NCBI RefSeq assembly: GCF_037975245.1 | Contig: NC_092575.1 | Coordinates: 20,411,841-20,475,840, forward strand | DNA: 64,000 nucleotides | Origin: Apostichopus japonicus | Lineage: Eukaryota > Echinodermata > Holothuroidea > Aspidochirotida > Stichopodidae | Reading direction: 5' to 3' | Shown: positions 9,301 to 34,800 of the stretch, piece after piece | Layout: every line of letters starts with the position of its first letter | How positions within the stretch are numbered: the first letter of the stretch is position 1 | The notes under the pieces: model-generated | The model's database searches: none | What the model saw: the letters and a program-made list of their open reading frames with translations, nothing else | Told to the model about the DNA's origin: nothing | Made by a program: the position numbers and the translations under genes

Positions 9301-12294
9301 TTTCTTCTGTCTTAGTTTTGCGACACATCTTCCAGTTTAGTTTTACTCTTTTACATATATTTTGTTTTGAGAGATTTTTATGCATCCTCTTGAAGAAACC
9401 TTGTAGTAGGCAGGCACATATATAAATGAATGTATACAAATTGTATACATTAGTAGGCAATACCCATAATAGTTCTTGTCATATAAAGCACATTACATTA
9501 TAGGGACTTGCAAAGATTGTACCTGAATTGTCGTTAGGAAAGCATTTTCACACTCTCTGTACAGCTCCCAAATAGCATTCCCTTTTCTCCAGTGGAGGCC
9601 TACAGCAGAGATGGCACGTTCATTGACATCTCTTATCTTCTCTACTCCTCCTGGTAAATTCATCCCACCGACTGAAAACTGGGCATATTCTAGCCACAGT
9701 TGGTCAGCTAATTTGGAAAAGAATTTGAATAAAAGAATGTTTATGGATTTGGTTGTCATTTCACCCAATTTTTTCGACCCTTATTTAGAAGTAAGATAAT
9801 TTATAATTTATCACACCAAAGATACCCTACTACATGTTGTCACCAAATGGAAATTAATAAGGTTGTTACTGACTCAATTCAATTCAATTCTCAAAAGTAT
9901 GTCACCGAGAAGTTTCTGTCAAATGCATAAAACTGAGATTTGGAAATACCTAATAATTTTGGCTGCTTCTTCCTTATTTTCAAAATTAATTAATGATTCA
10001 TACAAAGAATTACATGTTTATGGAATTCTATTAAATATTACTGAAAGTTACAGAAGTTACAGAACTTACAAAAGTTTACTCAAACAGCCTCTTTTAACAG
10101 TTTACATGGATTATTTACAAGTCCCAACATTTTCCCACACAAGGCTGATTTGTAATTATTCTTGATTGTCCAACACGACCATATCTTGTTGGAAAATCAA
10201 ATCTGTCCCATAAGTTTGCATAATCTCAAAGAAAAAAAAAATCTTTGATTTTCTAAAAATGGTGACATCCATCAGAACTAATAACATATTAACATTGACA
10301 TTTAGTTATATATTACACATGAACAATCAAAAGGAGTTTGAATCTACTTTTTAATGAAGGAGTAAACCAAGAGGAATAGTGATAAATTATTGTTATAGAT
10401 GGAGGTCACATTAAAACCTTCTTCATGCCCTACTGTAGATTCCACTGATTACAATGCAATCTGTATATATAGCAATAAGATATATTGCTTGGAAGCTTAC
10501 ATAAATAATCTTGAACAGCTCTGTCAAAGAGCTTTTCAATCTTCTCTCTGGATTTGCCATCCTCTGTAAACTTCCGTTCATCCTCTATCCAGTCCAACCA
10601 TAGTCCTGGAAAAGATCACACACAACTTTTAGTAATTGATCAGATAAAAAATTAACTTGACAAACATATTTAGTCATTTTATTCATATAACCATCTTATG
10701 AGGAAAAGAATTTTATTGCATGAGAACACTGTAAATACAAAGTATATTTTATTTACTATATTTATGTCTACAGTATGTTCATCATTCTGTGGACTTAACT
10801 GTTAACACAGAGGTCATTCATCACATTTTAAGCCAATATGGCAACTCTATGATGTAGGCAGGACTTAAAGCGTGTGAAGACTCGCGCAAAAAGAAATGTC
10901 TAATGCCGGTAATTTGACCTTTTTTTCGAATGAGGTGTAACAGAAGTGTTAGACACCACCATCGATCCCAGAAAACAACACACAGCTCGCTACCGTCGGT
11001 AATTAGACACTTGTGTACATTCAGTACATACCGCTGCGGTCATTACCCACAGCACAGTGTACAAACGATACAGCGATGGACATCTCAGGTCCAGCTAAAG
11101 ATTACAAGGTATCACGTTTCATTACTGTGCGATGCGACACGATGGTAATAGAATCTTAGAAACTACAATTAGCTTCATCTCCAAATTGTAATACAATTTG
11201 ATTTCAATGTTTATATACTCACTATCAGTCAGTGGGAATATTGCACTCATGTCTTCTCTTGCCTTACAAAGTTTGTCAAACTCTCCCTCTTTTCTCAATA
11301 CAGTTATAAGTTGAATGTGTAGGTCATACTGGTATGGATTGGCAGCAACCTGCAAAAACAAATATATTAATAAGTGTACAGTTATACATGAAAGAATATC
11401 TTGGTTTAAGCACTAGTTAACAGCTGAATAGTTTTCAAATTCGTACTCAGTCACTTGTCAAAAGTTCATTGAAAGGCATGTAAAATTGCTACATCAAATA
11501 TGCCAGAAAGGTTCACAAATGGTCACCAATATAAAATTATAAAACTAGCATTATTTGACATTTTTGAGGCTTTTACAGAAATATATTTCTTCAATTTTAT
11601 CCATTTGATGTACAAACAGTTATCCTCTGAGACACCTCCATGAAATTTCCATCAAATCTTGACTGGGTCATGTTTTGGTAAGCCTACCGGCTAAAGCCAA
11701 AAAAAAGGTAGTTGAGCACGTTTGCCCTGCAGAATGAGGAATAAGTATTTGCACAATCAAATTCATCCAGCTGGGTTGAAATCAAGAGATGCATCATGTT
11801 ATCACCATAGGACTCAGAGATGGATCATTGGGTACAGTAAATACTGACGGATACACTCTATTCGCCCCCCTCTAATGTGCAAATACTACAAAGCCACAAT
11901 GGAAAAAGTGCATGTGATGTGTATTGCAAAGCTGTATAGCAGTTTCGTTAGACAGAATGACATCTTCTACTATGAACAAAGTTTACTGGCTAACGAAAAA
12001 TGGTTAATACATTTGTTATTCCACGGCAGCCATGGAATACTGTACTGTAAGCACGAATTTTGATAGAGCACTACCACCTTCGCATAACAGGTACTAACAG
12101 CATATTTATACATCCATGTGGACACATCGTATCACATTCACATTAGTTTCTAAAACATAACGATGAATTGTTCTGAAATGTCTTGCCTTCTGTGTTAAGT
12201 CTTGAATGACTTCATCGTTTGCATCATCGCCACTGCTGTCGTCATCCTCAGCTTCCATAGTACTTTCCTCATGTTCAAGTGTCGTTGTTTCCAT
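362..12294 (-). CDS. SART3: SART3, U4/U6 snRNP recycling factor (N-terminal HAT-repeat half, 3' end off window)
   Basis: SART3 is a nuclear protein that binds U6 and U4/U6 snRNAs and helps reassemble the spliceosomal di-snRNP. It uses N-terminal HAT (half-a-TPR) repeats and C-terminal RRMs. Thirteen coding exons are visible in transcript order: 12187-12294, 11223-11349, 10501-10605, 9523-9707, 8533-8638, 7267-7391, 6535-6690, 6205-6343, 5328-5453, 4121-4186, 2910-2968, 1679-1788 and 362-557. Together they give 536 codons in one frame. HAT signatures seen include LWLDWIEDE, LWLEYAQFSVGG, LWLDYTQYL, RNCPW, LWESYIDYMRRR, MWMAYYNLER and the GDTKHCRKIL stretch, all collinear with vertebrate SART3. 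The start ATG at 12294 is preceded by an in-frame TAA at 12307-12309. An acidic N-terminus follows it (EAEDDDSSGDD). The first intron has a GC donor. The last exon ends in a charged coiled region (RRVEERREKER). The RRM exons must lie left of base 1. Confidence 0.93.
3223..3678. mobile_element. hAT-like MITE in a SART3 intron, 456 bp
   Basis: Terminal inverted repeats CAAGGGCGGC (3223-3232) and GCCGCCCTTG (3669-3678) extend to 13 of 14 matching bases. They are flanked by the perfect 8-bp direct repeat TTGACAAC (3215-3222 and 3679-3686), the hallmark of hAT insertions. A GGGGGGGCAC / GTGCCCCCCC inner inverted pair follows. There is no transposase. It lies between SART3 exons 10 and 11 of this model. 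Confidence 0.88.
4755..4800. repeat. Degenerate CCTAA/CCTGA interstitial tract
   Basis: TGACCTGACCTGACC, then TTAACCTAACC, then TGACCTAATCTAA. The tract is a short 5-6-base quasi-repeat resembling, but not matching, the TTAGGG telomere complement. It sits in a SART3 intron. Confidence 0.5.
12185..12186 (-). promoter_or_regulatory. Non-canonical GC splice donor, SART3 intron 1
   Basis: Exon 1 reads to the lysine codon AAG, followed by GCAAGA. The next exon begins after a standard TTTTTGCAG at 11350. This junction gives an in-frame join (LTQK then VAANPYQYD) that fits SART3. No GT donor nearby preserves the frame and the similarity. The upstream AAG matches the strong exon-side consensus usual at GC-AG introns. 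Confidence 0.7.
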
Positions 12295-12734
12295 TATTAA
12301 AGAAATTTAACCTTCTGGCTCCTTTTCAATTTCAGTCTTCGTCTGGGCGCTTACATTTTCGAGGGCGCTGCAGATGTAAACAAAACCAACTAAAAAAACT
12401 TGATAGTCTGGTAAGGATCGGCTGCTACTGCCAGCGGAAGACGGTGATGCAATACTGTGAAATTTCGTTATTTTAAACCCAGCGCTCATTCTCGAATGAT
12501 ATGGCTTTGACAGTCTTACACCATTTTGGTTCTAAATTTCTTTCTTTATTTAAATGTGCTATGCAATAAATGTCAATCTGTGTGGATCACCCCATCAGTA
12601 TAAATAATAGCAAAATCTAACTTACGCTAGGCCTAGGCATAAATTAACGTACATAGGCTACTTACATTTTCTCCTGTCCCAACTAAGCCTACCCTAGTTG
12701 CAGATCCATTACTTGGTAACGGGGCTGATCCGAA
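12295..12734. promoter_or_regulatory. Divergent promoter between SART3 and the Tpt1-like/LRR gene
   Basis: Only 440 bp separate the two start codons, which point away from each other. The interval must hold both 5' UTRs and both core promoters. No TATA box in a convincing place was seen. A TAGGCCTA palindrome lies at 12628-12635. A 60-codon antisense reading frame at 12307-12489 has no recognisable similarity and is not called. Confidence 0.6.
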
Positions 12735-15700
12735 ATGGAGGGAGCAACCTCATCACTACGAAATGCAAACGATTTCTCCCACAACGAGAAACTCAGTAAA
12801 CGGTTGGCTTACATACTAAGATATGGAGCAAGGAAAGAAGGGCTCACTGTCTCTGAGAAAGGTAAGTCGGAAATTATTTTCATACGTGGTCAAGCTTTCT
12901 TTGTCCAGCGGACAGGAAATGAAGAATCACATGCTCATGAATAATTTGGATTCCATTTTAAGATCACAGATAATCCATTCAACTTCTTTGGAGAGTCAAA
13001 GTTATTTGATATGTTTTTTTACATATTTCATTCTCGGACAAGGAGTTGATATGGTTAGTCATTTTTGTGATCTAGCTATTTCCTTTGCATGGACTTTTCA
13101 AGTTTGATCATTGGAAAGTGAAGAACATCTAGATTCTAGATTGCATATATATTTTCTTAAGCATAAGAATATGATATTTTGTGACATCAGCACATTAGAC
13201 TGTTGCAAATGATTATCTATTCTAGCCTATAATATGTTGCTTATAGGCCTACTCATCATTTACATTGGAATGCATTTAGCCATGGCAGTTGGAGATGAGA
13301 ACATTCAGGACACTACGCAAAAAATTCACCCTAGAATAAACCTCTTTGTTATTGCCAGTGTTGTCACAAAGTCAAAGTCACAAGTCAATTTTTTCTCAAG
13401 CCAATTTTAGTCACAAGTCAGGTTATCTTATTGCAATTCAAGTCACAAATCAATTGTAACAGAAAAAAAAGTCAAGCAATAGATATAGGGCGAATGAAAA
13501 TCAATCGATGAGTTTCAACAGGGCATATTCAGATGTGGTGCCAGTCCAGTGGATGACATGCATCTGTGAGCTCCAGCTAAAAACTAAGAAATGAAAACAT
13601 AGCTAAGAGCCTAGGCGAGCTCATACAATTAACAGAGCTTGCTCTCACTTTGTAAGTCAAATTTTAGTAAAAATGAGAAACAGAACAAATTGAGTATTAA
13701 TTACATCATCCAAAGCATTTCTTTTTATTTGTTTGTTTAATTAGCAAGTTGGTAATTGTAAACAAGTCATTTGATATTATCTCCAAATCAAAATCAAGTC
13801 TTCAGTGAATCATTCATCAGTAAGGCAAGTCAAGTCACAAGTAAAAAATATGTGACTTGAGTCTTACTCCAGTCCCAATCTTTGACTTGAGTCAACAATA
13901 CTCTTACTTGCTGAAATTGATCTTGTCCTGCACATCTTTAGGTTTTGTTGACATAGATGAGTTGATGACCCTTGACCTCATGAAGGATTACTCAGTGGAT
14001 GAAATCAAGAGGGAGATTAGCATCTCTATATCTGCCTCTGGTAAAAAGAGATTTCAGATGAAGACAGATGGAAAAGATGTATCAGTGAGAGCTTCTTACA
14101 GAAGAAGATTTGAACCAGTGAGTATAACTTGCTGTCTGCTGAAAGGTTTCGTAATTCTTGTACTGGTTCAATTAACTTTTTCTATGTTTTATCTCTCTGA
14201 CAAACTTCTGATCTGTATTAAAATAGTAAATTCTTCCATTAAGTCTTGATGGTGTGTTCCTTTCTTCCTCTTCCGGAGACTACTTGGCAGATGAAACAGT
14301 ACATTTTATATCTATTTCCGTCCTGCATTTTTTCAATTCTCCCTCAACCCCTCCCTTCTCATACATGCAAACACACTTTTCTTTTATTTAATGATCCATA
14401 AGATTTTTACAATATTTTTCATTCATGCCAAAGAAGCAAACAAAAGCATGACCTACCTCAATTTCTGTGTAAATTATTTTTATGATCATATTTGAACTTC
14501 ATATTTTGAATCTACCAAGATATATTAGGGTTATAATATACCTACAGTTTATTGCATTCTTGAACTTAAAGAATTTACAAAGAAAAGTGAAACAAAGTTG
14601 GCAATTTGGGTGAATGATTTCCTGCATTCCTTTGATTATAGCTGTTATTATTATTATAAAATAAGTCAGTTTCTTTCGTTTTTTAAGAATTTTTTTTTCT
14701 CTCCATAGAATCCATTTCATGATGGGACACAAGTCACTCGATTAACAGAGTTTTGCCTGTGTTATATATGCAAACATATTGAAGACTACTGTTTAGAAGA
14801 TTTTCCTGATGAATATTTGGTCAGGTCAGCAAGAGGTGTTTAAAATACACTGCAATTTTATATGCTTCTTTAAATCTTCATCTTCAAAAAATCACTTGGT
14901 GTCCTGTCTTCACATGATAGAGCACCATTTGCATATTCATTATTTTATTTTAATACTATACTTTTCAAAGATAGTAAAAGATTTTTACCATTTTCAAGAT
15001 ATTAATTACTAATATTTAGGCATGATTACTTTTACAAAACATGTTCAGGTAAAAAAAAACATTTCAAGAATTGGGATGTATGAATTTAACATTGTACCAA
15101 ATTTGACAAATTTTTTGCATCAGCCCTCAATAATTTTGTCCCTCTTTTCCTCCTTCCTCTTCAGAGAAATCATCCACAAGATGAAGAGAGATAAAAAGCT
15201 CAGCAACAAAGCTCTCCTTAATCTGGTTGGTCCTGGGTTAGAACTTCTTGATTTGGAAGGTAGTTTCATCACAGAGAAGACTCTAAATATTGTTAAACAA
15301 CAAGGTTACAATCTCAAAAGTCTCAGCTTAAAGGGAGCTGGCTATCTCCTAACTGACCATAATTTTGTTCCTTTGATCAAAGTAAGATTTTCACCTTATT
15401 CTAAGAAAAGTGAATTAATTTCAATAAAAGTATGAAAATAATTTTTTTCAAGAGAGTTTCATGAAGATGTGTTCGACCACTATCTTTTCTCAGTCAATGA
15501 TAGGTCATTAATTTAATTAACAGAGTTTAGGTGAAAATGCATACTTTGACGCTCTTAGTTACTTTCAAACATTTATGAAATAATTAAATAAAGAAAATGA
15601 AATAAGACAAATAAATCACTTAATATGGTAAATTCTTTTGATGGTGCCTATAAAAATGCTTGTTGAAATATGTATATGAGGGACTCATTTTTTACTTTAA

Positions 15701-16379
15701 TTTCTAGCATATTTGAAAGCAATAGTTTAAAACTGACAACAAATTGGACACTTGATTTTAGTATATTTTAAAAGAGTCAACCTGAAGAAAAATCAGGATG
15801 GTTCATGTTTCTCAAGGCAGGCGAGAAACAGTAGTACAGGCAGGTTTATTTGTGATGTTGTTGCAGAAGTAATGTTGTAGGTAGTATATTCGCCAGTTAA
15901 TAGATGATCAAATTCCAACCTTTTCATTACTGAATAGGTTAAAACCTTTGTGGTAGAGCCACTGTTTACTCAAAATGTCGAGTATGGAAAATATACATGT
16001 CATTTTTACCAGAATATGTGAGTAATATAGAATCCTTCATTTTTCTTATTTTTATTGTAATCCTTTCCTTTTTCAATCTCGTGCGTAGAAACTTGGCCAT
16101 CTCGAGACTTTGGATATCTCCGGCTGTTCACATCTGACCTCGGTTTCATTTTCCAGCATTCCAAGAGCTTTACCATCCTTAAGGAGAGTACTCATGTCTA
16201 ACTTACCAAACCTCTCGGAAACTGATATTCTCGTCGTCATGAATGAATCGCAAAATCTGAAATATTTACAACTCTACGGTAACGACGAACAGTTAACGAG
16301 AGGAGCAATAACAGGAATTTTGGGACTCGGCAAAGAAAAGCGGATTTATGTAGCTGCAACTTCAAGCGCGATATCCTGA
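12735..16379 (+). CDS. Tpt1/KptA N-lobe fused to BC-box-like helix and leucine-rich repeats (putative pseudoenzyme)
   Basis: Exons are 12735-12861, 13942-14117, 14709-14824, 15165-15381 and 16089-16379; all have GT-AG borders and consistent phases, giving 308 residues. Residues about 15-100 match the N-terminal winged-helix lobe of tRNA 2'-phosphotransferase: LSKRLAYILRYGA, EGLTVSEKGFVDIDEL, KKRFQMKTDGKDVSVRA. In active Tpt1 the first motif carries an Arg-His pair (LRHGA). Here it is Arg-Tyr. The QGHS motif after IRA is replaced by SYRR, and the NAD-binding catalytic lobe is absent. The chain continues with LTEFCLCYICKHIEDYC, which resembles the Elongin-C-binding box of ZYG11-type receptors (L-x3-C-x3-I). 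It ends in leucine-rich repeats such as LELLDLEGSFIT, LKSLSLKGA, LETLDISGCSHL and LKYLQLYGN. Catalysis is therefore unlikely. A scaffold or ubiquitin-ligase receptor role is inference. It is not a plain TRPT1 orthologue. Confidence 0.8.
13355..13910. repeat. AAGTCA-rich inverted repeat element in intron 1 of the Tpt1-like/LRR gene
   Basis: The left end (about 13355-13460) is full of AAGTCA/CAAGTCA words and the right end (about 13796-13910) carries mirrored TGACTTGAGTC words. The two ends therefore form imperfect inverted arms around about 350 bp. Similar AAGTC-rich sequence recurs at 23050-23110 in MKS1 intron 7. No clear target-site duplication was found, so the class is unknown. Confidence 0.4.
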
Positions 16380-18558
16380 TTGGATTGTAATGGTTCATTA
16401 GTGGTATCATACTTAGGATGTGATAGCCGTCTTTTTATATCAGGTTTTTTTTTTATAGAATATGTCTTCCTTGCAGGTCATCAGTGTTGCCCCCAAATAT
16501 GCCAAAAAGTCAGATAACGGTCTCGCATGTGAAGTTCCAAGCAGCATTTTACTGCCACTCTAAAACCAGTTATCCACAATGGGACTTTTCTTCTTAATAA
16601 TCCTCAATATCAGGAGTACAGAGCCTCTACAATACTACCTTTTGCAAACTTCCAGCAATGTTTTTTTAACGTGCTAAAATTTTGTCTGATACCCGTTACC
16701 GGTTAAATCCATTTTCAAAAAGATGGTTGTCTATTGATGGGTGCTGAATAATCATTATGAAGGTGTGTTCTAGCTTTTTCTGATTATGTACAAGTTACTG
16801 GCTTATATGCCTTGAAATTGAGAAGTTAGTCTTCTTATGTTTGAAGGTTATAGGACCTAAGTTACTTTCCCAATGTTTTCATCTGCTCTGGCTGAATAAA
16901 CAGAACAAATAAAATGTGAATGACATCCAAACTGATTCTTTTTTTATTCTCTTTGTTATATCCTAGCTCCACAAGCTGTATTACAAAGAATGCTCAATGG
17001 AGTATCTTTACTAAAATTTGGGCAACAAAACATGATTAAAGTAGACAAGTTTCAAGTAGTAGTTACTTGACCTCTGCAAAATAACTGATTCTGAGAATAA
17101 TTTTGTGCAAAAAAAAATTGATCAAAGTGAGACTAAAACTAAAAATTCTAGGTTTTTGGGGTTTAAAGTTCAGGAGACTGGGCAAACATATAAGTCGCTT
17201 TTAAGATGGCAAATCTTGCCTACATAGGGTCACCAAATATGTTTGATGGGTTTCCAAAATATTCGGAAGGAAAAAGAATTTGTTGTGTCCTTTGGAAAAC
17301 AACAACATGATGGAAAAATCTTGAGCATAAATTACTTTCAAAATCGAAAAAAACACCATTTTATAACGAAGCATCATTATTCTTTAATCATATACAACTG
17401 TTCAAAGGTGAGATAGATACCCCCTCCCCTATACCCCTTCCCCATGCCACGACATCCACCTATGGAGGATTGCTAAAGATGAAGGTAAAAATTGTAGTCA
17501 CATAGCAGTGTCACATCTAGTGTGTCTGCCACTGAAATATCCCACATGGGGCGCAGCCAATTTTGTTTTGTTTTGACTGGGCGAGGGGGGGGGGGTAGGG
17601 GTAACATGTCAATTCTTCCAGGGCAGGGGCCTACAGGAATATTTTGGTATATTGGAGGGTTCTAAGATGCAAACTGTGTTGCTATTGTTTGACAACGTTT
17701 GTTGTATATGATTTGACTGTTTATAGGCATCAACGTAACTTGTACCGCATAGATGTTACATAATGATGTACGTGTGCACTACAAAATTTTGTATTAATAA
17801 CATGGTCTGCCAGTGGAGGGAGGTCTCATCTCTCCCACCCTGATTTTTTTCTAGGTGGTAAATGCCCCAAAAATATATGTGGTTGCAATTGGTTTTGATA
17901 GCAATAATTCATACCAGTGCCCCCAATTATCTGAACACCTTCCCCTTCTTTTCATGGTCGATCGTGGGATCTATTCGGTATAAATTATAAAAGGGTTGGA
18001 TAAACATGTACTAACTTCTATGGTAGTAGTCTTTCTGTCACAGTAAGGCGAGTTCCCTGAAATTTCCTTTCGAGTGTTTTTGGCAGTTATAGGTGTATTA
18101 CCATTTGGTCACCCTCATGCGATCTTTCGGAGAGAAATTCAAAACATTGCACAATGCACATATTTCGGCACGATCAGTGTCTGGCATCTAGTAAATGTTG
18201 AGTCCTTCATGCCACTCAGCAACGCCCAAAACAAAATCTTGAATACTCTTGGCAGTTATCTTACATACGTTTAGCTCACTCTGGAGGTTGTCTATCATAT
18301 ATGTAGGCGTGGCTATGTACATGTTATAATCGACTGATTCTACTGGCTAGTTACCAATTATGGGCGCGGCCAAGTTGCCGTCGCTCTTGATCGGAATGAA
18401 CGAAGGACTCAACATTTAGACAGCCAGAAATGTCAATCACTGCACTGATCACCAACACAAACACCTTGAACAAGTATGCCTAGGCCTAACCTTAATAATG
18501 ATTCTTAAAGTATACTGAACGTGAAGCTGGCAATATTGAAAGTAACCCATGTGGAAAG
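16380..18558. other. Intergenic region between the LRR gene and MKS1
   Basis: The first half-kilobase is the 3' UTR of the upstream gene. The rest shows no open frame of coding character. It includes C/G-rich tracts at 17419-17445 and 17585-17595. A roughly 300-bp stretch at 17200-17510 loosely resembles 45820-46140, probably an old dispersed repeat. The MKS1 promoter must lie just before 18559, in DNA with a TAGGCCTA at 18481-18488. Confidence 0.5.
16895..16913 (+). terminator. Polyadenylation signals of the Tpt1-like/LRR gene
   Basis: Two AATAAA hexamers (16895-16900 and 16908-16913) lie about 520 bp after the stop codon on the coding strand. They are the first clear signals downstream, so the 3' UTR is probably about 0.55 kb. 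Confidence 0.5.
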
Positions 18559-21500
18559 ATGTCAGAAGTCAAAACAGCTGACTTGGGGACTGGATACTAC
18601 CGATCCAAGGATCCGATAAAAAACCTCAAAATAAAGTGAGTTTGCGTAACGTTAGGCCTAGTATTACTAGTATTAGGCATGTTAATAGTACTACGTTAGG
18701 CCTAGCCCTAACTGTTATGTTATGTATTATTAGCGCCTAGCCTTGGAGTCGGACTGCCGAAACTAAGCCCCCATCAGCGATCAGTCTACCAAGGGAATTG
18801 GAGGACTAGATTAATTTTATGCTTGAGTTTAACCTATTTGAGTGTAGGCCTGAACTGTCTCAGGTTAAGAATATGTTAGACTAACTTAGAGTACATTGTT
18901 AGTTTTGTTACAGATATGAGCTATCAAACTTGGTCACTATATGCCTATATCAATGCATTAAATTTAAGAAGTCTTTAGCTGTTTGCAATGGAATTAGTTT
19001 CTACTTCACAGCTATATGTAGATGATAATACTTATTACTACTTTAGGTATAGATTTACTTCTACAATATCCTACCACAACGGCTACTGGCCTTCAGTGAA
19101 CAGAAGTCATGGCAACTACCAAGCTTGTATGTTACCTAATCTCAGTATACTAAGTGATAGTAATGTTTTCATGTCTTGTGCACTATTTACATTAATTCAT
19201 ATGCCTTTTGGTCCAAAAATACCGCACCCTCAGGCTGACTTTTGACAGTCGTTGAATGTAAAATTACTCAGTTTAGATGACGTCATTGAATATACTTAAA
19301 AGATTTGAAGCCAATCATTTTGCTCTCGGAAGGAAACCATAAAGAGGTTCTTTCTGTTTTTTTCCATTCTTGTTTTTTTTCTCCTTTAATGCAAGAATTC
19401 ACAATATTTATATTGTTTTTCCCAGAGTCAATTTGAAGAAAGTGACTGGGTCAAGTCTAGTTCCAACTTTTTATAACCAGGATGACGATGGTGCTGGTAC
19501 TAGTGCGATGGAGATGAGGCCTCTTGGAAGTAGACCTTCATTAAAAGGTTAGTTATTACAACTTTTGAGAAAAAAATGATCATTGTATTGCCTAGCAAAT
19601 TGGAAGCACCCATTTCAAGTAATTTGGTATGGAATGCAGGTGGATGAATACATAATATTACAGGGAATAATTTATCCAGTGTCACCTCACAAGATGCTAT
19701 GCAAATATAGTCACATTAAGTCTATCCAAAGATGTATAGAACATTTTTACACACAAACCATAGTATTTTATATGAGAAAAACTTTGGAGCCATCAAAACA
19801 ACTTCCCAAAGCTTGAACATTTAAGTATTCCTGATTATTGCAAATATAACTTCATATGCACAATACAAGTTATTGATGATATGCCACAGAGGGAGGGTAA
19901 GAGGCTGGCACATTTTCCTTTCAACTATATATAATATCACAGATTAAAATGTCTTTGCTCCCAAACAGCTCCAGCTCCTCAAGAAGAGAAGGAAGAGTAT
20001 ACCTTCACCTGGCAGGAGAAGGTCTTTAGTCGGAGGGAGGTACAGATCTACTCAAATCCAGCCAACTGCTTTGGTCCGCAAGAAGAGAGACATCACCAAG
20101 ATATACTCGCCTTGAAAGAGCAGGGCGGCAGAAAGACCAGAAGATTATTTTCCTATTTAGATTCCGATAGATTCACAAGTAATGATGAGGTTTGTACAGG
20201 GTTAGTGGCATATATTATGTAAAATTAAAATTTTTATCTGGTGCTAGTCGCCTTGACGATAGAAAGCTTCCTGAGAAACATACTTGAAATCATATATAAT
20301 TCATTTTTTTTACTTTTTGTTGTTTTGTGTTTTCTTTTCTTTTGCGAGTTTGACTTGTAGCCACCAAAAAAAAACGACTCAGTTTTGACAGGCAGAAATA
20401 TTCACATTGTATTTTATGAAACTGCTCACCTTAATATCTTGTTAGATAAGATAAGGTTGATTGAAGCAACATAATATGAAGAAAATTAGATGAAAATTTC
20501 TAAGCAGACAAAAAGGGGATCATATGTAAACTCTTCAACTTAGTATCTCCATATCATGATTTATGGTTAAAGATATGGTTGCTTGAAGTTGAGAAGATAG
20601 GTCTGTGGCCTTTTCAATTTTTTTTTTTAGCCAGGTAATCCCTTAGCTTCACTAGGAAAAGAGCTTTAGTGGATGATATATGTTTCATATCAAGTTGAAT
20701 TCTGTGTGTAAATTGCCAGTCAACACCATTAACCCTTGGTTTAATGACATTAATCTGAAACATTATAAAAGCTATTAAGTATAATTAATTATGCAGAGTG
20801 TGACCCAAACCAAGTGGTGGATTAGACAAGCATCGTATTTGTTGTGTCATAACAAAACAAATTTCCGGAACTTTTCTTCTTTGCAGCAAATCCTTGCCAC
20901 TAGTTCCCCCAATGAGACAGCCTCCTTCCTAACACAGAAGATGCAGAATGTTAGAAGACGCAAGTTAGGAGGACCGGGAGACAGGTGAGTTAACCAGGGT
21001 AGCACTTAATAAACCAGGATAGTATATGATGATCCAGTGTAGCATCTGGTGATCCAGGGTAGCATCTGGTGATCTAGGGTAGCATCTGGTGATCCAGGGT
21101 AGCATCTGGTGATCCAGGGTAGCATCTGGTGATCTAGGTAGCATATGATGATCCAGGGTAGCATCTGGTGATCCAGGGTAGCATCTGATGATCCAGGGTA
21201 GCATATGATGATCCAGGGTAGCATCTGGTGATCTAGGGTAGCATATGATGATCCAGGGTAGCATATGATGATGGGGGATAATTTTGTTGAATACTTTGCT
21301 CACTTTCAGAGGATACAGCGATGCCAATCGAAGGAGGAAAACGGATGTGGTCATTAAGGAGCCTTCAGAAGAACACGTCCGTAGTGCCCATGTCCTGGAC
21401 ACGCCCGAGGTTACCATGTACATAATGGCTGACCTAGGGAGCTTTGATGAGTGAGTTTAAATTTGAAGAAAAAAAGACATTATGAAACTCATGATAGTTT

Positions 21501-24500
21501 CCATAAATTGAAGTATTATCTGATGTCCATGGAATGTTTTTTTTGGGGGGGGGGGGGGGGGGGTGAGGGTTGAGGGAGAGATCTTTAGATGTTGGAATGT
21601 TATGTGTGTAACCCATGATTTGGAGCTACTGGCTTCCTACCATGACTGAAATATGATCATTTTGCTGTTCATACCAACAAAACAGGGGAGGTGACAATGC
21701 AGATGAAGGCCACTCATTTTAGTTGTTGTCCGTGATTACTAATATTCATTTTGCCATGACATACCTATACCCCCTCCCAACATACCAATACTTGCCATTT
21801 TGGACCCCCCACGTCCCTTTCTCATCTGTCCTTTTAATAGGCCCTGTCATGCTGGATATGTATATTTAACACAATTAATTGCAAGAATAAAATAGGGTAT
21901 GTTTCATAGCTTAATATCTTAACTGTGGAAAAGAGCTAAGAGACTTCTGACAATTACCATTCCTAAAAGTTAAAGCTAAAAGTTTCTTTGCTCCTCTCAA
22001 GTTTGTGTCTTTAATTTCCCTGTTAGCATCCATCATTCATTTACTTATACAGCTTAAAATTGTACCTGATGCTTGATGTTAGATCTTCCAAAGACATGAA
22101 CGAAATAAAAACAAATTTAAACATATTTACAGGTTTCTGGAGCTGTATGAACATATGAGTCATTAAAGAGAATGAAATGTACTGACTCTTCAAAATAATA
22201 CATACATGTATATAATAATTCATTTAAAAAAAATCAAATTCTCCAATTTAAAGGGTCTTGCTTGAATGTGTGGTTATTGAAATATCTCAAATGTGTGAAA
22301 TTAGTTTACAAGTTTTAACTCTTTTTTTTTCTGTCTTTCTTTTTCTTCAGAGAAGTGGCAGAAGAAGATGAACATATTTTATGTACCATAAAGGTCAGTC
22401 ATCATGATGCTATGAAATGTTGATTTTTTTTCATTCTGTTTTGTTATCTCTTATCCTGCTAATACTTTTTCTCTTCGTTTGGCAGACCAATGGTCAAGGA
22501 GTGACCAGCTTGACCCCCGATCTGACCAGGCACAAAGACCCTTACATCATTGTCACGAACAATGCCCGTCGGGACTCCTTCCAGTACGAGTTGACCCTCG
22601 CATCTCAACCGATCAGCTGGAGGGAACAAGACAGAGAGAATAAAATGTACCAAGAACTTTACCAGAGACACTCTGAATATATCAAGACATTTGTGGGACA
22701 AGAGTTTGAGATGGTACGGTATGCAACTCTAGTTCTGTGTAGATTAGGTATTAAGGGAAGGGGCTGGGGAGAGAGAGGGTAGACAACATATGCAAGGATT
22801 TATCCGATGCGAAAGAGAATATAGTTTAGTCTCATCAAAACTGAAGAGTGTGGCTGGTTTATTTATTGTGTATAATTTTCCAGTGTATGAAAGTTATGTA
22901 TGTCCTGGGTTGGAGTACATTACTAAGCTGATGTTGTTGGCCTGTAGTGTAACTTCAATATTTACTGAGAGCAGTATATAATTCATTTTATACTCGATTG
23001 ATTTTGACTTACGTTGATGGCAGAGTAGTGCAGAAGTCATTTTATTATAGAGTCGAGTCAAGTCAGTTATCAGTGATTTTCAAGTCCAGTCGACATTGGC
23101 TCAAGTCACTGTTTAATCTCTGTCTGGAAGATAACTGACAAACTTGTTCGAAGTCACATCCCTTTTGAAATTTAGTGACCTGAGTTATCACTCGTTACAG
23201 CGCTAGTGTATGGTAAAGAAATGTAACACATGGATGTGATATCACTTACAATATATATATGTAAAACATATTGTTTCTTTCAGCACAATCATTGAGTATG
23301 CAATTCTTGTCTATGAAAAAAGTTAAAGATGACAGAGTAAATCATTTTAAACCAGAGTTGCAGATCTCATCCCCAAGTTTGGGTATATGACCGCTATGAT
23401 GTCATCACAATGACTATCCAGATTTGAAGTACAAGAAGCCTTGAACTGTAATGACTCTATTGTTCCCATTTTATAAATTAAATATGAAATATAAATTACT
23501 TCCTCAGGTGCCAGCCAATATGTTGAGACTTCTAGTTCTGGGCGAAATTGTATCCGTGAAGAATTTCGAGTACGACAATCTCTACGTGCATTACTTCATA
23601 GAACTACCCAAAGGTGAGTCGCTCATTGTATATTATGAGATGTGAAATGACAAATGTAGGCATTCAAACGCCATTCAATGTAACGTTAGTTACATCACTA
23701 ATATCAGGGAGCGAATTGATATACAGAAAATTAAGTAAGAGTAATATCAGGGAGTGAATTGATAATAATTACAAAAATTATGTATGAGAGGGAAACAAAG
23801 TCTGTCACAATTCAAACCAAATTATCAATGCTTGGCCAACTCAATCCCATCCTCTGAAAAGCAAGGCAAGTTTTCAATGGTCCTCCAAAATTTCTTAGGG
23901 AAAACCAAAAGCAGCTTTGGATGTCTATTTCTTTCTTAGCTGTTTGGAATAGTGCAATATGCCGGGGCGGGGGGGGGGGGGGGTGGTGAGGTGAAGGAAA
24001 GTGTCACAACCATGGAAAAGAGGGCACAAAATAGAGAAGTTTGAAAGTCAAGGGCTTCATATTAATAGAAAGTTTTGTAATACAGCGATAATATTTAAGG
24101 ATAAAATGATATCAAAAACTTAAAGGGCCTGAAGTTTAGATCACTGAAGGATCTTATTCATTTTATTCTAGACTAATTGAAATCAGAAGAGGCTTAAATG
24201 AGACAGATGGACCGTAAAGTGGACAAAAGAAACAGCAAAAATAGTTTGGTGAAAGGGAGAGGGGAAGAGAGGATAAAGTGGTTAAGATCTCTTGTCTCTC
24301 TGTACATTACATGTCCACACGTGATCACTGCACTTTGATATCTACGACACGTGTGCTGTTTGTTGTGATTAGCTTTCGATCATTTCAATGTAGTCAGCAT
24401 TTTACATGAAGTTTTTCATTTTATTCAAACAGAGTGGTCTGCAGACAGATCCCAAGAGATGGCTGGAGTCACCCAGACATGTAAAACAAAAGAAATTAAC

Positions 24501-27500
24501 AGGGTGAGTAATCGTAAACATGTAGTCCCAAAACACAGTGTCAGGGTGATAGCTTTTCTTCTACCTCAGAGACTTTGTTAGTTGTATGTATGTATGTATG
24601 TATGTATGTATGTTTGTATGTATGTATGTATGTATGTATGTATGTATGTATGTATGTATGTATGTATGTATGTATGTATTTTAGATTCTCCTGCATGCAG
24701 GAACTCGCAAAGAAGCCTCATTGGCTTATCAAAGCGGCAAGCTGACCGAAGTCAGTCTCTTAGATTCATATTTAACGTCCATGATTATGAATTGTCAACT
24801 GTCAACAACTCTGCAACTGGACGACATCCATTAATCTTGGAGTGACTCAAAGTGGGGAGTTGTAAGATACTGTTGTTTGGTCTGACAGATTGAGGTGGAC
24901 TCTCTCTATTTCGTATCGAATTTTTTTTTTTGTCCTTCTTGCCCTTCTCTAACTCCTCATTGATGGCTAATTCAGGTTCTGAGGACATAATTTTCACCCC
25001 CATATTTTCCTGGGCCCACTAATTGACCCTGGGTCCCTAGGCTGTCCTCCTAACACCATCCCCCCCCCCCCTGCCTCTCAACAGGCCTGCCTTACCTTCT
25101 CTTTCCATCATCCCTTTGCAGAAGCAAATTCTCAATGCATTCAATGTTTAAATTTTGGGTCAGCAAAAAAATAGTAATCATAACTTTTTGTGTATTGTGA
25201 TATGTTAGTATTAAAGCTTTGCTGTAATTGTTTTCGTCAGGAGAATGTTGCCTACTTGAGTCACCCTTTTGAAGTTGAGATGTTCTACAAGCCAGATGAA
25301 ATAGAAGAGAATGAGGAGAGATTGCCACAATGGCCACAGATATTTGTAGAAGTATTGTCAATAGATTCCTGGCAGAGGTACAGGACAGAGGGTTATGGGT
25401 ACATCACCGTACCAAGTACACCTGGCAAGTACAAAAGTGTATCTATATTAAAATATTTTCAATAGATTCCGAGGTACATGACAGAGGGTTCTGAGAATGT
25501 CACAATATCAAGTTTGCCTGACAAGTACTACATTATATTGACTCGAGTACTATAAGATACAACAACAGTAGCCAACCACTGCAGAAGTTTGGCTTTAATC
25601 AGAGTCATTGTAAATTGAAATCGCAATAATTTGATTATCTTCACTGACCAAACTCAAAAAGTCATAATTTATTACCTTGTGTGAAACTTCACTGCATCTG
25701 TTATTGCATTGCAAAATACTACATGAAATAGTTAAATTGCTATGTAAGTGCAAAGGTGCATAGCAATTTATGTGCACACGAATCATAGTTGTTTAGTGCT
25801 ACACAAAATTTGAATACTAAATGAGTCACTGAAATTTATTGTAAAAAATTCTTGAATAGAGCCCAAAAAAAAGAAGATAACTTTAGTCAGATAAGTCTTA
25901 TGTTTGGTTGCTTGTTTGATCAAATGTGGCAAGTATTACTCAAAATAACAATAATAGCTTTAAACTATTAATAATAACTGATTCATCGTCAGATTCTACA
26001 TCAGTGTTGTCACCACCAAACACATTCACATAATCTATATATCCAACATGCAAGAGGCTCAGTGAAGATGTTCAACTTGTCTTCTTTATTTGAAAGGAAT
26101 CATACCTAGTCAAAGTAAAGAATTCTGTCATCTGCAAATCATGCGATTTTTAGTGTCGATTGAAATTTGAAGATTTATCAAAGTCGACACATAAAGTTGC
26201 TTCAGGGCATACGATAAATATATGACCCTGACTACATGGTCAGGTACAGGGACTTTCCTTTCCATTTTATTTCATTCTTTCTTATTGTTCTAGGTACACA
26301 TCACCTGGACATTCAAACCTGGCGACCTCTCGGACGAAGCTCGTACGAAAATCTCCGGCGTTTCTTCATTGGGGGATCGCCAGAGTTGGAGGACCCCACC
26401 TACGTCTCAGTTCCGATCACCCACGACGGACCGGTTCTCAGCCGTTTTGGGTTTCGGACAGAAACTACAGGAATGGTTTCGCTGAAGCTGCATGTCATGC
26501 AACAGAGCAGGTTTGTCAACAATCTCCAGAGTTGCTGTTTAAAGGAGATGCAGTTTAGCTCCATGCCACCAAGAAAAGTCTTGGCCTGATTTGGTAGATA
26601 ACATGTTTCAAGGGTTCCTTCATATGCTATAGCTGAAGACTTGATCAGTTCTAAACAGGACGTCAAAGAGCCACTCGTGTTTGTGTAGTTAGTATTTTGG
26701 ATTTCCAAGAGGGGAAAACTATGATGTCACTCTTAACGACCTTGCAAAATTGTGAGGGGATCACAAAGTCGGCAATGACTGTAACGTGGATTGCAAAGTC
26801 AGTAGTTACTATTACGGTTAGATTTGTCCAACACTGCAGCATACAGAAAAGTTGAACTCAAAGCCAAAGTGAATTAATCAGGTTGCATATTAGGAGTCTA
26901 TGCATGCTATCTTCTACAATACCACCCATTATTTCCTTTAGTGAAACATCTCATACTGTAGTTCTTATCTCCTAGTAACAGCATCACATCACTGATTGAC
27001 AAAATGGCCGACAGTGTTATTTCCCTTTGAGATAGTTGAAGAATTTGATCTACTAATCTCATTTCAGACATTTCCCTAAATATTTATATATAAAGATTCC
27101 AAGGCTTCCTGGTACATAATCAAAATATGTCTTGGTCATCTAGTTCAAGAATATGTGGTCATAGTCGTTCTTACCTGCCGTTAAAAATGCTTGAAAGTCA
27201 CGATGGAACGATTTCAGAGATAATTTTTTCTTTGTTCTTACAACAGGATTTTTATGGAGAAATCTGCATCAAGAAGGACAGTGGGTTCATTGATTGACAG
27301 ATTAGGGTGAGTTAAACTCATTAGTATTTCTCTTATTTCCCTTAATATTGAATGCCAAAAGGTTCCCCAGATATACGATGATGATGATCTGAAAGATACG
27401 TCTATAATGTATAAATTGATATACTCTTTAAGAACAGTCGTCCAAGATAGAGCATGAACACCATAACCAAGCCACTTGATCCACTTTCAACCCCAGGTCC

Positions 27501-29247: not shown

Positions 29248-31777
29248 AACTATTTATATATTTGTCTGTTATTGAAAAGGAATTATTAAACACAAATATT
29301 GTGATTTTGCCCCAAGAGTTACATAGTCAGCTGTGTTTTACCAGGATGCATATTGCATCTGAGGATGTTATTGATTTATTAATAGTGACTTTGTTTCCTT
29401 GATAATCAACCCATGCCGACCTTTGGTACTTTTCTAGTTGTTATGGAAACTATTGGTATTGCATGATTCGAATTACAGGGATCACGGGTACCTCCGACAC
29501 AAGCACCTGCTTGAATCTTTCTGTGAAAATCAACTTTCTGTCAGATGGTTCATCAGTGGAGATCATTTCAATTTAGGGTTCTCCTCTGATACAGTTTTAA
29601 ACACCTTTGAAAGAAGATACCTCAAACAAGCAAGGAAACATCTTGTGCAATTTTTATCCCAGATTTTAATTTTTATTTCCTGATCCGGTTACTAATCTTC
29701 TTGTCTTTCATAGTATTGTAACACCTTGAATTTATGGACCTTCATTTAAGAGTCCTTTTTTGGTATTCTGCCCTCACTTACCTTGATATGGGTTATGCTC
29801 TTTCAAATATCTTTTACATTATTTATTAGTTGTCAAGTGGGATGATAAAAATAACCTGCCTCTTCTATGTGCCATGCGAGAGGATGACAGGAATATTGCC
29901 AAGAAAAATTCAAAGGATTGGAAATTATTTTATTTTTTTACAGAATGCTTCACCTCATTATGCTTAGTTCATAGAGTCATCTAGTTTGGACTACAGCAAA
30001 CTTTGAGTTATTACATAGTGAGTGTAGTAGAATGATGGGCTCAATAGGGGAGGAAAAGAATTTTAAACATTTGGAGTAGAGTCGAACATGTTGTGGTTGA
30101 TTGGGTTTGGGAAATTTCTACGTTAGACAGGTTAGGCTTCCCGCAATGTGCCAAATCTCACTTTGCTGTCATTACATTCAATGAATTTTTAAGAAATTTA
30201 CTCTAAGCACAGGTAGCATTATGGCCAACAATGTCTTAGGTCAAGCAGATTAGATTGGATCTAAATGGCAAAAGGTTGCTCTTATATGTGACATTCTCCT
30301 CTTAACGTATCAATGTTACCTTAACAACTGAAAGGAAAAGCTTGACTTTGAATTCTTCAATTTAATATTTAAATTATTGTTGTAAACTTGATATGTTTTT
30401 GATATTTGAGATGGGGAGGGGGAGAGAGGGGGAAGGGGAGAGATGGGGAGGGGGAGAGAGGGGGAAGGGGAGAAATGGGGAGGGGGAGAGAGGGGGAAGG
30501 GGAGAGATGGGGAGGGGGAGAGAGGGGGAAGGGGAGAGATGGGGAAGGGGAGAGATGGGGAGGGGGAGAGAGGGGGAAGGGGAGAGATGGGGAGGGGGAG
30601 AGAGGGGGAGGGGGAGAGATGGGGAGGGGGAGAGAGGGGGAAGGGGAGAGATGGGGAGGGGGAGAGAGGGGGAAGGGGAGAGATGGGGAGGGGGAGAGAG
30701 GGGGAAGGGGAGAGATGGGGAGGGGGAGAGAGGGGGAAGGGGAGAGATGGGGAGGGGGAGAGAGGGGGAAGGGGAGAGATGGGGAGGGGGAGAGAGGGGG
30801 AAGGGGAGAGATGGGGAGGGGGAGAGAGGGGGAAGGGGAGAGATGGGGAGGGGGAAGGGAGACTTGGTCATATTTATTTATACCGTGCTGATGGACATGA
30901 ATTTAAAAGTAAGCTTAAATCAAATGTCAGAATTGTAGCATTTACTCATTTTACTGCCATTGTTAGAAAAAAGTATAACTTTTATATCACTGAAATTATC
31001 TTTCATTTATTACTCTGTATATACATTTTGTAGCAATTAAAGAGCCACCAACTAAATACATTGATTCATTTACTTTTTCATCATTCTCGAGTATCAATGT
31101 TCTTATTGAGCAACAGGGAAATGATCTAACACTAGTTGTTTTCTTTGAAGTTGTTAGTAACTTTGCAAAAGTGAAAGAAATTGAATTTAAAAAAAAAACA
31201 TTTCAGTGATCATTCACAAGTTTTTGAATCCTTCTGAAGTAATGGGTCTTATACCAAAATCATGCTGAAGAAGTTCCAATGACTTGACCAAAATGAATTT
31301 ATAACCATTAATTTCTCTGTTGGACAATGGCAAAACAATGACCAGTAACTTCAACCATGTGACTGGGATAGTTGTAGCAAGTCATCTCTTAAACATCATT
31401 GCTTTAACTTGATAGGGACAGAAAAGTTCAAAGACCATTTTTGCTCTTTGAAAAGAGCTTGGCAATATGTTTGTATACAAATTTCCACGAGGCCAAGGAA
31501 ATTCTAGCACTCACCCTGTGTAATCTGGCCTGACAGAAAGAATCCAATAAATACTGTAAGAAGAAAGTCCATTTTACAAAATGATTTAGTCAATTTCCAA
31601 ATCATTTCACTTGCCTCTTCAACATAAAGCTTTTGAACTAAAACAGAATTATACATTCCTTCAAGTCTGGACCTGGAAAAAGCTACTCATCAGTAAACCT
31701 TCAACTATTTAACATGCACGGATGTAAACAGTCACCTCATGATGTCTCTATGAGGAAGAAACGTTTTTATCCAAGTC
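29248..31777. other. Intergenic region between the convergent MKS1 and RAD51D 3' ends
   Basis: Apart from the GA-rich minisatellite at 30405-30860 nothing gene-like is seen. Short open frames lack similarity and have AT-rich composition typical of spacer. Confidence 0.6.
30405..30860 (+). repeat. GA-rich minisatellite, 32-bp unit
   Basis: About 450 bp of purine-only repeat on the plus strand except for one T per unit. The unit is about 32 bp, built from two 16-bp halves (ATGGGGAGGGGGAGAG and AGGGGGAAGGGGAGAG). Because 32 is not divisible by 3, several frames stay open through it as low-complexity Gly/Glu/Arg; these are not genes. Runs of G could form G-quadruplex or triplex DNA. Confidence 0.97.
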
Positions 31778-31783
31778 TTTATT
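31778..31783 (-). terminator. Polyadenylation signal of RAD51D
   Basis: AATAAA on the minus strand (TTTATT on plus), about 100 bp past the RAD51D stop. Confidence 0.5.
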
Positions 31784-31883
31784 CTGAGAGTTTGTCGACT
31801 GAGCTCGTGAATGCGTACACCACTGGTGACTGGGTTGTCATTCCTCTCAGGTTGGATATCCTTCAAGTAGATGCTGATATCCT

Positions 31884-34800
31884 TCAAGTAGTTGCTGGTG
31901 AAACAGCCATTGTATCACTACCTTGTGGGTCAGTTACACCTCTCTCTGATATCACAAATGATGCTGATGTTCCAGTAGGCTACGAGACATGAAAGGAAAT
32001 TATGAAACATAGTAAATGTTATTGATACTACTGTGTTGCAAGAAAACAGACCAGGGATTCTCAATATATTTTCTGCGTTTGCCAGACAAGCATTATTTTT
32101 GGCGATAAGGGCCATAAGGAACCTAAATCTAACTATATCTATGTAGTGTGCAATGTGTAGGTTAGGCCAGTATGGTGTTCCAGCCTAAAACAAGCCTCCA
32201 GGGTCCACATACTCTTGGAGTGCCAAACTGTAATTTGATTTTGTCTTAGTTTGTGGAGTGGAATGAAATCTTTTGCCCGCTGGACTGCTCTGCAGGAAAC
32301 CAATTGAAAACCCCTGCAGTTGGCTGTAGAAAGAACCACATTGCATATATTAAGAAAGGTAATAGCTGCTACCATTGACCCTTAGATCTGTTACCAGTTC
32401 GACAGAAAAAATTACATTGAACATCTGTTGAATATAGAGTTAAAGCACTACCTATATGATGACATGAGATTAAAATGTAAGCTTCTTATAGTAAATGTAC
32501 AGATGTGATTTAAGTGGACCCTCTCCAATTGAATTCCATTGCCATCTCTCCCCTGCCATCTCCCTCCTCCCCTGCCATCTCTTCCCCTCCCCTGCCATCT
32601 CTTCCCCTCCCCTGCCATCTCTTCCCCTCCCCTGCCATCTCTTCCCCTCCCCTGCCATCTCTTCCCCTCCCCTCTCCCTTCCCCTGTCATCTCTTTCCTC
32701 CCCTGTCACCTATCCCCTTCCCCTGCCATCTCTCCCCTTACCCTGCCATCCCTCCCCTGCCCTACCCATTACTAGACTGAGCAAACTCACCTGTCTCTGT
32801 GACTTTATTATGACAGCTTTCCTTCTTTGTATTCCGAGAGGCACAGCTGTATCCTCAATGCCTACTGCTGGATCTTGCTTTATCATGATTCTTGTGTGGG
32901 GTACGCTTTGCCACGAACGACCCAAAGCAGGTTTCTTTTCGTCCCAGGATTCACCTTGAACAACTGTATTGGTTACCTATGAATACAGACAGACAAACAT
33001 TGGACACTACCCTAGCTCACACTTAACACTTTAAGTAGGAAAAGCTAAACGAAAACATGGATATAAATGTCCCCCATAACTAGAACAGTAAACCATGATC
33101 AAGTCTTTCCTGTAAGATTGAAACAGCTTCTAGTGATGGCCCAGGTTTTAAAAGTTTAGAAGCCACGTAGAGGGCTTTTGCTCACTTGTTTATCAGTATT
33201 GTAACATTTTTGCTGTGAATCTACCTTGAAGGCCATGAAAGTAATCAAAGTTAGTAATAATATCAAGTTGATCAAAAGTTAAAAGTGTTTACATCTGTTT
33301 CAAAGCAAACACTTGATTTCAACACTTAATTTTTATGCTACTTGAAAATTTTAACATCATACTTGGACAATTGCCTGATGGATCTGTGAAGTTGGGCGCT
33401 GAACCCACATTAATTTGATAAAGCTGGTTGTGCCTGTTGCTAATTGCAATTACTCATTTACTAAATTTAATCATAATAATTAAAAAGTCATAAACTCAAA
33501 ACAGGAAAATTATTTGGACTTTTTGTGTTTCAAGAAAATGGATATGGACTGTCTAAAATGGAGATATTTGTTACCATTTGATGACATCACTCACACAATT
33601 TATTCAAGTTTTTACCATTGTTGCTGGCAAGGTACTTGCATCCATGTGGATCTATATAATACATACCAAGCTAACCTCAACTAATTCATCAACTGATTCA
33701 TCTACACAAATCACAACTAATTCATCTACACTAATGAATAGTTTTGAGTTATGTAACAGACGATCTTACCAAGACAGACGTGTAAAATTCCACTGGCAAT
33801 ACTTTCAAGGCTTGTGCAAGATGGCCGATCAAGGCTTGGCCTGTAATACAAATAAACAAAACAATTTAAAGCAATACAAATAATGCACAAACAATGCACA
33901 ATAAACAATGCAATTTGTGTTATTGAGTATGTTGTACCTGGCAAAGTGGCCAGTTAGATCTGACTAGTGGGTACAGGCTAGTTAGTAGGTCATAGTCATA
34001 GCTCAAGCTGTGGTACCTATCCAATCCTCACACATGCTGGTACACGGCACTTACCACAAGCTGCACGCATGATAATACCGTGACAATGTATAAATCTTGT
34101 TAAATGTCCTAAAAGGTCACAACATCTACATAACACACAGTCAGGGTAATAATTCTACGATCTCTCACTTTTAAGCATCTGCACAAAAGCATAATCGATA
34201 TCTTATCCTATAGACGAGGGCTCTAGAGGTTACATCAAACATTTGCCAGTTTATATCATCTTCTTGGGAGACCCTTGGATCAATCCACTAAACAGCATGT
34301 CAAACGATATTAACTGAACTCACCATCAACTTGGTTTCCCCCTAGCAGAGGAGCTAGCAAGGAAGACACCGAATCTACGATAACCATCTTGAAGGACACG
34401 TTAGCTCCATCTTGACCCTGTTCTAATCTGCCTCTGACCTCCTCCAGTAACTCCAACAAGTCATAGATATCAAAAACCTGCTTACACTGAATCCGCTGCA
34501 AAGCCTCTTGTTTAGTCTGTATATCAAAGAGACCATACTTCTCAATGATACTGTCTGTATGGTGGCTTCATAGGGACATGGGGGGGGAAAAAATAAGTGT
34601 CCCCAAATCTCACAATTTTGACTTTTCATCTCAAAGTTTTGACTTTTTATCTCAAGATATTACTGCTTGGGAAAAATGCCAGTGGGAACAGAAGCACTGG
34701 CATTTGTTTAGCAAGTCTCTAAATTGTGAGATTCTAGTCCTGTTATGTTACAGCATAGAACTCAAACATTGGATCACATCTTAAGCATCTCTTAATTCCC

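Follow-up and report, generated by a model that had tools for sequence, protein, structure and literature searches.

RNA 2'-phosphates are written by ArkI in archaea and by RNA ligation in fungi, plants and the lancelet, and they are erased by Tpt1/KptA (PMC9095486, PMC4090602). The structural report on CthTpt1 divides this enzyme into an RNA lobe (residues 1-85) and a nicotinamide adenine dinucleotide (NAD) lobe (residues 86-182) (PMC6333775). Here we describe a gene on the + strand of a 64-kilobase (kb) stretch of DNA (the window), positions 12735 to 16379, whose predicted product joins a Tpt1 RNA lobe to leucine-rich repeats (LRRs). Like Tpt1/KptA/TRPT1 (PF01885), the predicted protein has an RNA lobe with equivalents of S10, K11, R18, K66, R68 and Y80. 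Unlike these enzymes, it has no NAD lobe (no Arg121 and no HGT motif), His19 is replaced by Tyr and GHS by RRR, and LRRs follow. The nearest published neighbour that we found is LRRC9, which also combines LRRs with an ADP-ribosyltransferase (ART)-related piece and for which a function as pseudoenzyme is discussed. However, LRRC9 is described as carrying a predicted, remotely ART-like domain of the NAD side (PMC7955679), and with it the other half of the Tpt1 plan; the window protein has the RNA lobe but lacks any ART part. Judged by title and start of abstract, none of the papers listed in searches of the open-access literature deals with a Tpt1 RNA lobe joined to LRRs.

The gene model comprises five exons. 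Splicing yields 927 nucleotides in a single frame and thus 308 residues, with the stop as codon 309; all four introns are GT-AG and the exons start in phases 0, 1, 0, 2 and 0. A preliminary description of the locus had read the five exons, the single frame and the stop in the same way, and its junctions 14117-14709 and 14824-15165 are correct by sequence in regard to both frame and GT-AG. The exons and the lobe are as follows.

12735 to 12861, + strand: exon 1, residues 1-42 and the first base of codon 43; bears LSK (S21, K22) and LRY (R29, Y30).
13942 to 14117, + strand: exon 2, last two bases of codon 43 through residue 101; contains the end of the RNA lobe and bears K77, R79, Y95 and RRR 96-98.
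14709 to 14824, + strand: exon 3, residues 102-139 plus the first two bases of codon 140; without Met.
15165 to 15381, + strand: exon 4, from the third base of codon 140 through residue 212; contains two LRRs, the first of which starts at residue 163 (15232).
16089 to 16379, + strand: exon 5, residues 213-308 and the stop; three more LRRs to about residue 292.
12780 to 14108, + strand: Tpt1/KptA RNA (winged-helix) lobe, residues 16-98, in exons 1 and 2 with the intron 12862-13941 between them.

At the given base composition the chance of 308 open codons is about 4e-10, a value that is indicative only since the exon borders were picked by eye. The guanine-cytosine (GC) content is 0.399 for the exons overall and 0.285-0.340 for the introns. 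Judged by its genes and introns, the window is animal-like. No second copy was found in the 64 kb (tblastn, other matches with E 1.3 or worse).

The assignment of the lobe is based on several comparisons. Residues 1-101 match PF01885 with E 4e-13 (residues 16-95, profile positions 2-79 of 177) and the whole protein does so with E 2.2e-12 (residues 17-97, profile positions 3-81 of 177); in both cases the match is restricted to the N-terminal half of the family profile. With residues 1-106 as the query and E of up to 10, twelve PDB sequences were listed, eleven of them 2'-phosphotransferases and one a tail protein with E 1, and a profile comparison with five KptA sequences by hhalign gave 97.0% and E 1.1e-10. 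A hidden Markov model (HMM) of the lobe, built from 85 Tpt1 sequences, scored the spliced protein with 43.1 bits (E 2.3e-15 for a single sequence). When it was run against the 2143 six-frame open reading frames (ORFs) of the window, the top two were exon 2 (E 2.4e-4) and exon 1 (E 4.4e-4), each detected separately. A scan of 12735-22734 with PF01885 pointed to one frame (E 8e-6) in two stretches, one of which is exon 1, with exon 2 lying in the same frame. The set of 85 consists of CthTpt1 and 84 bacterial, archaeal or phage sequences; 84 of the 85 collected loci yielded an ORF and near-duplicates were left in. Prokaryote genomes contributed 80 loci out of at least 573 relatives, and five phage or plasmid loci were aligned, matches being present in 14 phage and 11 plasmid records. 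The lobe shares 16% to 41% identity with the 85 enzymes, and its net charge is +5 compared to a median of -2 (range -11 to 8). Exons 1 and 2 end near the border of the RNA lobe, where a phase-0 intron is located. On the - strand, 38343-38465 gave a further weak match to the RNA-lobe HMM, which with E 0.051 across the 2143 ORFs is probably due to chance.

Residues 163-292 form five LRRs, so that the Tpt1 N-lobe joined to LRRs, as first described, is borne out by the predicted protein. LxxLxL motifs lie at residues 165, 190, 217, 243 and 269, the fourth being off-pattern; the loose pattern also matches at 50 and 113. The preliminary description had proposed a profile comparison for both parts. 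This gave the PF01885 match for the lobe, whereas the Pfam LRR models (E 7e-4 to 4e-3) stayed below their curated cut-offs and the repeats were instead recognized by phmmer against the PDB, with FBXL2 at 1.3e-12 summed over three repeat registers (best single stretch 0.002). F-box/LRR proteins (FBXL2, FBXL17, SKP2) share this LRR type and rank first among the PDB sequences that match the LRR part. However, they carry an F-box before the LRRs, and in the window protein Pfam reported none at E up to 5, a search in which the HMMER filters drop most weak matches.

The NAD lobe was found neither next to the RNA lobe nor elsewhere in the window. An HMM of the C-lobe of the 85 sequences matched nothing in the 2143 six-frame ORFs (best E 1.3), PF01885 was not found in the three + frames of 14118-24109, and within the 308-residue protein neither Pfam nor the C-lobe HMM gave a match. 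The absence of this lobe had been noted before, and downstream exons restoring it, named at that time as evidence to the contrary, were not found in six frames of the 64 kb. The Arg-His-Arg-Arg tetrad of the enzymes is incomplete: R29 and R79 are present, His is replaced by Tyr30 and the fourth Arg belongs to the absent lobe. Because the NAD lobe is absent, the predicted protein should have no 2'-phosphotransferase activity by the known mechanism.

The pocket of the RNA lobe is largely kept. According to the CthTpt1 structure, the transferred phosphate is bonded by Arg18, Lys66, Arg68 and Tyr80, the 3'-phosphate by His19, Arg18 and Arg121, and the base is held by Ser10, Lys11 and Arg68 (PMC6333775). 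In the alignment with the 85 sequences, Ser10, Lys11, Arg18, His19, Lys66, Arg68 and Tyr80 correspond to S21, K22, R29, Y30, K77, R79 and Y95 of the window protein. Six of these seven RNA-lobe contacts are identical and only the position of His19 differs; the seven columns are 89-100% conserved across the 85 enzymes. All four members of the phosphate-bonding set (Arg18, Lys66, Arg68, Tyr80) are identical, and of the essential tetrad the two arginines that belong to the RNA lobe are retained. The lobe has 15 further columns with a conservation of at least 80%; 8 of these are identical, giving 14 of 22 overall. The seven that differ are, in CthTpt1 numbering, position 14, P21, D29, I76 (V), G81, H82 and S83; position 14 is A in both the window protein and CthTpt1 and S in most enzymes. 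The initial statement that the catalytic motifs are changed holds for His19 and GHS but not for the RNA lobe at large, and it made no mention of the kept S21, K22, K77 and R79. The quoted motifs LRYGA and SYRRR are indeed present, although the triplet before the latter reads VRA rather than IRA. In this register IRA-L-Y-G-H-S of CthTpt1 becomes VRA-S-Y-R-R-R, with Tyr80 (Gln78 in RslTpt1) kept as Tyr95. The replacement of GHS (81-83), just before the lobe border, by RRR fits the apparent loss of the NAD lobe. As a speculation, RRR might add arginines where Arg121 once helped.

Among the kept residues the two arginines count most, because their replacement in RslTpt1 strongly slows catalysis: R16A slowed step 1 by 380-fold and step 2 by 710-fold, and R64A slowed step 2 by 210-fold (PMC6333775). 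The tetrad His is termed essential for activity in the same report, touches the 3'-phosphate only, and its replacement by Ala in RslTpt1 slowed step 2 only threefold (PMC6333775).

Reuse of the lobe for binding, already suggested in the preliminary description, seems the most likely explanation of this pattern. Specifically, we tentatively favour, at clearly less than even confidence, a product that acts as a non-catalytic reader of RNA phosphate, be it a 2'-phosphate or an RNA end, with the LRR arm serving a protein partner. The Tpt1-type lobe would retain the pocket (S21, K22, R29, K77, R79, Y95) that in Tpt1 accommodates both the junction base and the 2'-phosphate, and with the NAD lobe gone the phosphate could not be removed. 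The lobe would then bind and hold RNA bearing the mark of a Tpt1 substrate, either an internal 2'-phosphate left after 5'-phosphate RNA ligation or a phosphorylated end, and the protein would act as a reader of, or a competitor for, the substrate of Tpt1. The five-repeat arm may recruit a protein partner. This partner could be a ubiquitin ligase, because the segment between lobe and LRRs resembles the Elongin C/Cul2-binding segment of ZYG11B. Binding, ligand and partner are thus all inferred. In regard to the ligand, the lancelet is reported to possess the whole pathway of 5'-phosphate ligation, whose product retains a 2'-phosphate (PMC4090602); an invertebrate chordate can therefore contain the mark. 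Human TRPT1 is reported to bind RNA and to ADP-ribosylate 5'-monophosphate RNA ends (PMC9458441); RNA ends are therefore an alternative ligand.

Several points weigh against such a reader. The fourth essential arginine (Arg121) would sit in the absent lobe and the tetrad His is lost. Contacts kept at 6 of 7 positions do not differ significantly from the 8 of 15 other conserved columns (Fisher p 0.19), so that the selective keeping of pocket residues is a pattern rather than a proof. The 85 enzymes of the comparison are chiefly prokaryote and phage sequences, selected mainly via an NAD-lobe motif, and eukaryotic TRPT1 was compared only to about residue 89. Furthermore, S8A, K9A, K62A and Q78A of RslTpt1 retained near-quantitative activity at 1 mM NAD, with K62A being less active at 0.1 mM NAD and K9A mildly temperature-sensitive in yeast, according to the mutational data on this enzyme. 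These residues correspond to S21, K22, K77 and Y95 of the window protein, and by this analogy four of the six kept contacts would be individually dispensable for catalysis. This weighs somewhat against the reader and in favour of a different explanation, in which the lobe is a mere winged-helix scaffold that binds nucleic acid regardless of phosphate marks, or binds protein, and in which the kept residues reflect slow divergence or a recent origin. Such a scaffold is only slightly less likely than the reader; against it, family-conserved polar positions outside the pocket (D29, H82, S83) have been lost while the six pocket residues remain.

A role of the protein in ubiquitination would also be compatible with a reader of RNA phosphate. 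The segment in question, including its helix, had gone unmentioned in the preliminary description.

14742 to 15168, + strand: BC-box/Cul2-box-like segment, tentative; residues 113-141 (LTEFCLCYI ... FPDEYLVRE), in exons 3 and 4 with the intron 14825-15164 between them.

ZYG11B and ZER1 are substrate receptors of the Cullin-2-RING ubiquitin ligase (CRL2), and the window protein resembles them in the order of a BC-box-like helix, an FP of the Cul2 box and then LRRs. Its LRR part matches ZYG11B with a BLASTP value of 2e-5 in a single comparison, and the Pfam model LRR_Zer-1 with 0.0024, below the cut-off. It differs from both proteins in that it departs from the strict VHL-box consensus, ARM repeats are absent and a Tpt1 lobe stands in front; it has five LRRs, compared to the ten reported for ZYG11B (PMC13201589). 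Residues 113-141 read LTEFCLCYICKHIEDYCLEDFPDEYLVRE. The first 17 of them (113-129) align without gaps with the BC-box helix of human ZYG11B, LLDICLNFLTTHLEKFC, with 6 of 17 identical and a score of 44. This score was reached by one of 34,340 17-mers from the 885 window ORFs of at least 35 residues, namely by the segment itself. For shuffled sequences the counts were 9 of 2000 when the whole ZYG11B fragment was used and 2 of 2000 when only the first 90 residues of this fragment were used; BLASTP of the segment against ZYG11B gave 0.018. The ZYG11B residues that face Elongin C are reported to include L18, L19, C22, L23, F50, P51, I21, L26, F33, V54 and L58 (PMC13201589). L18, C22, L23, F50 and P51 are identical to L113, C117, L118, F133 and P134 (the FP part aligned by hand), and I21, L26, F33 and V54 are matched by F116, I121, Y128 and Y137 (some by hand alignment).

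These likenesses would allow the protein to be a Cullin-2 substrate receptor composed of the winged-helix lobe, a VHL box (BC box 113-121, Cul2 box 133-141) directly before the LRRs, as in ZYG11B, and the LRRs. The LRRs or the lobe would select the target, with ubiquitination perhaps occurring when RNA is bound. We regard this as unlikely. The ZYG11B contacts L19 and L58 are replaced by T114 and E141. The published VHL-box consensus is a BC box (S/T/P)LxxxCxxx-phi and a Cul2 box phi-Pxx-phi-xxx-phi (PMC4878042); its strict form is broken by R112 at the first and E141 at the last position, and only a relaxed pattern is found at 113. The relaxed motifs are common in shuffles (1939 and 4863 of 50,000), and a search of residues 102-178 against the PDB for a VHL box returned a single chance match with E 1.8. 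Moreover, the comparison with ZYG11B was picked after the sequence had been read. Overall, the likeness to ZYG11B can be taken as a lead, and the ubiquitin-ligase reading is weaker than that of an RNA-phosphate reader. Distinctly improbable is the bolder version in which LRRs and an element resembling a VHL box couple the recognition lobe of an eraser to a Cullin-2 ligase, so that RNAs with an unremoved 2'-phosphate or a phosphorylated end would trigger protein turnover.

It is improbable that exons 1-2 are part of one gene and exons 3-5 of another, or that overlooked exons restore the NAD lobe. Intron 2 does hold ATTAAA at 14217 and nine ATGs, and AATAAA occurs once in intron 1 and three times in intron 4, which would allow for an alternative end or start. 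However, intron 2 has no AATAAA, exon 3 is without Met and is preceded by a long pyrimidine tract and AG, and every join keeps the frame and GT-AG. Overlooked exons are countered by the above searches of six frames of the 64 kb and, by Pfam, of 14118-24109 on the + strand; further downstream lie the exons of a B9-domain gene at about 25.2-26.5 kb. A decaying, functionless TRPT1 duplicate with captured LRR exons would account for the loss of His19, of GHS and of half of the domain but is highly improbable, given five open exons, intact splice dinucleotides and 14 of 22 identical conserved lobe columns.

The gene is flanked by two further features.

12295 to 12734, no strand: divergent interval of about 440 bases between the ATGs of the fusion gene and of a HAT-repeat gene, the start of the latter set by eye.
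16895 to 16913, + strand: two AATAAA polyadenylation-type signals (16895 and 16908), about 520 bases 3' of the stop.

The left neighbour on the - strand shows HAT-repeat matches (PRP39 models with 1e-9 and 1.2e-9, above cut-offs; ORF 12106-12306) and is presumably SART3-like. The interval 12295-12734 could be a shared two-way promoter. On the right side, B9-domain matches (7e-15 and 6e-14) mark exons at about 25.2-25.4 and 26.3-26.5 kb. ARAGORN found no transfer RNA genes in the window. Several repeats were observed as well. A 20-base tandem repeat with 13 copies (CCAGGGTAGCATCTGGTGAT) at 20994-21272 is crossed by a pair of ORFs (97 and 163 codons) that overlap each other on the - strand, and a (TGTA)n microsatellite with 24 copies occupies 24583-24679. 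A G-rich 32-base tandem repeat at 30408-30855 (14 copies, 98% match) probably accounts for the peak in GC skew (0.381) at 30001-32000; a C-rich 20-base tandem repeat with 11 copies at 32548-32763 has the opposite strand bias.

We know of no RNA 2'-phosphate reader, and the main text of PMC9095486 does not use the word 'reader'. Tpt1 ablation in mouse and in E. coli is reported to be free of a phenotype (PMC6333775), and it is because of this that the retention of Tpt1 by animals is an open question. A natural RNA lobe that has been freed of the NAD lobe, with its pocket mostly kept, would offer a direct handle on the reading of 2'-phosphates and on why Tpt1 is retained in animals.

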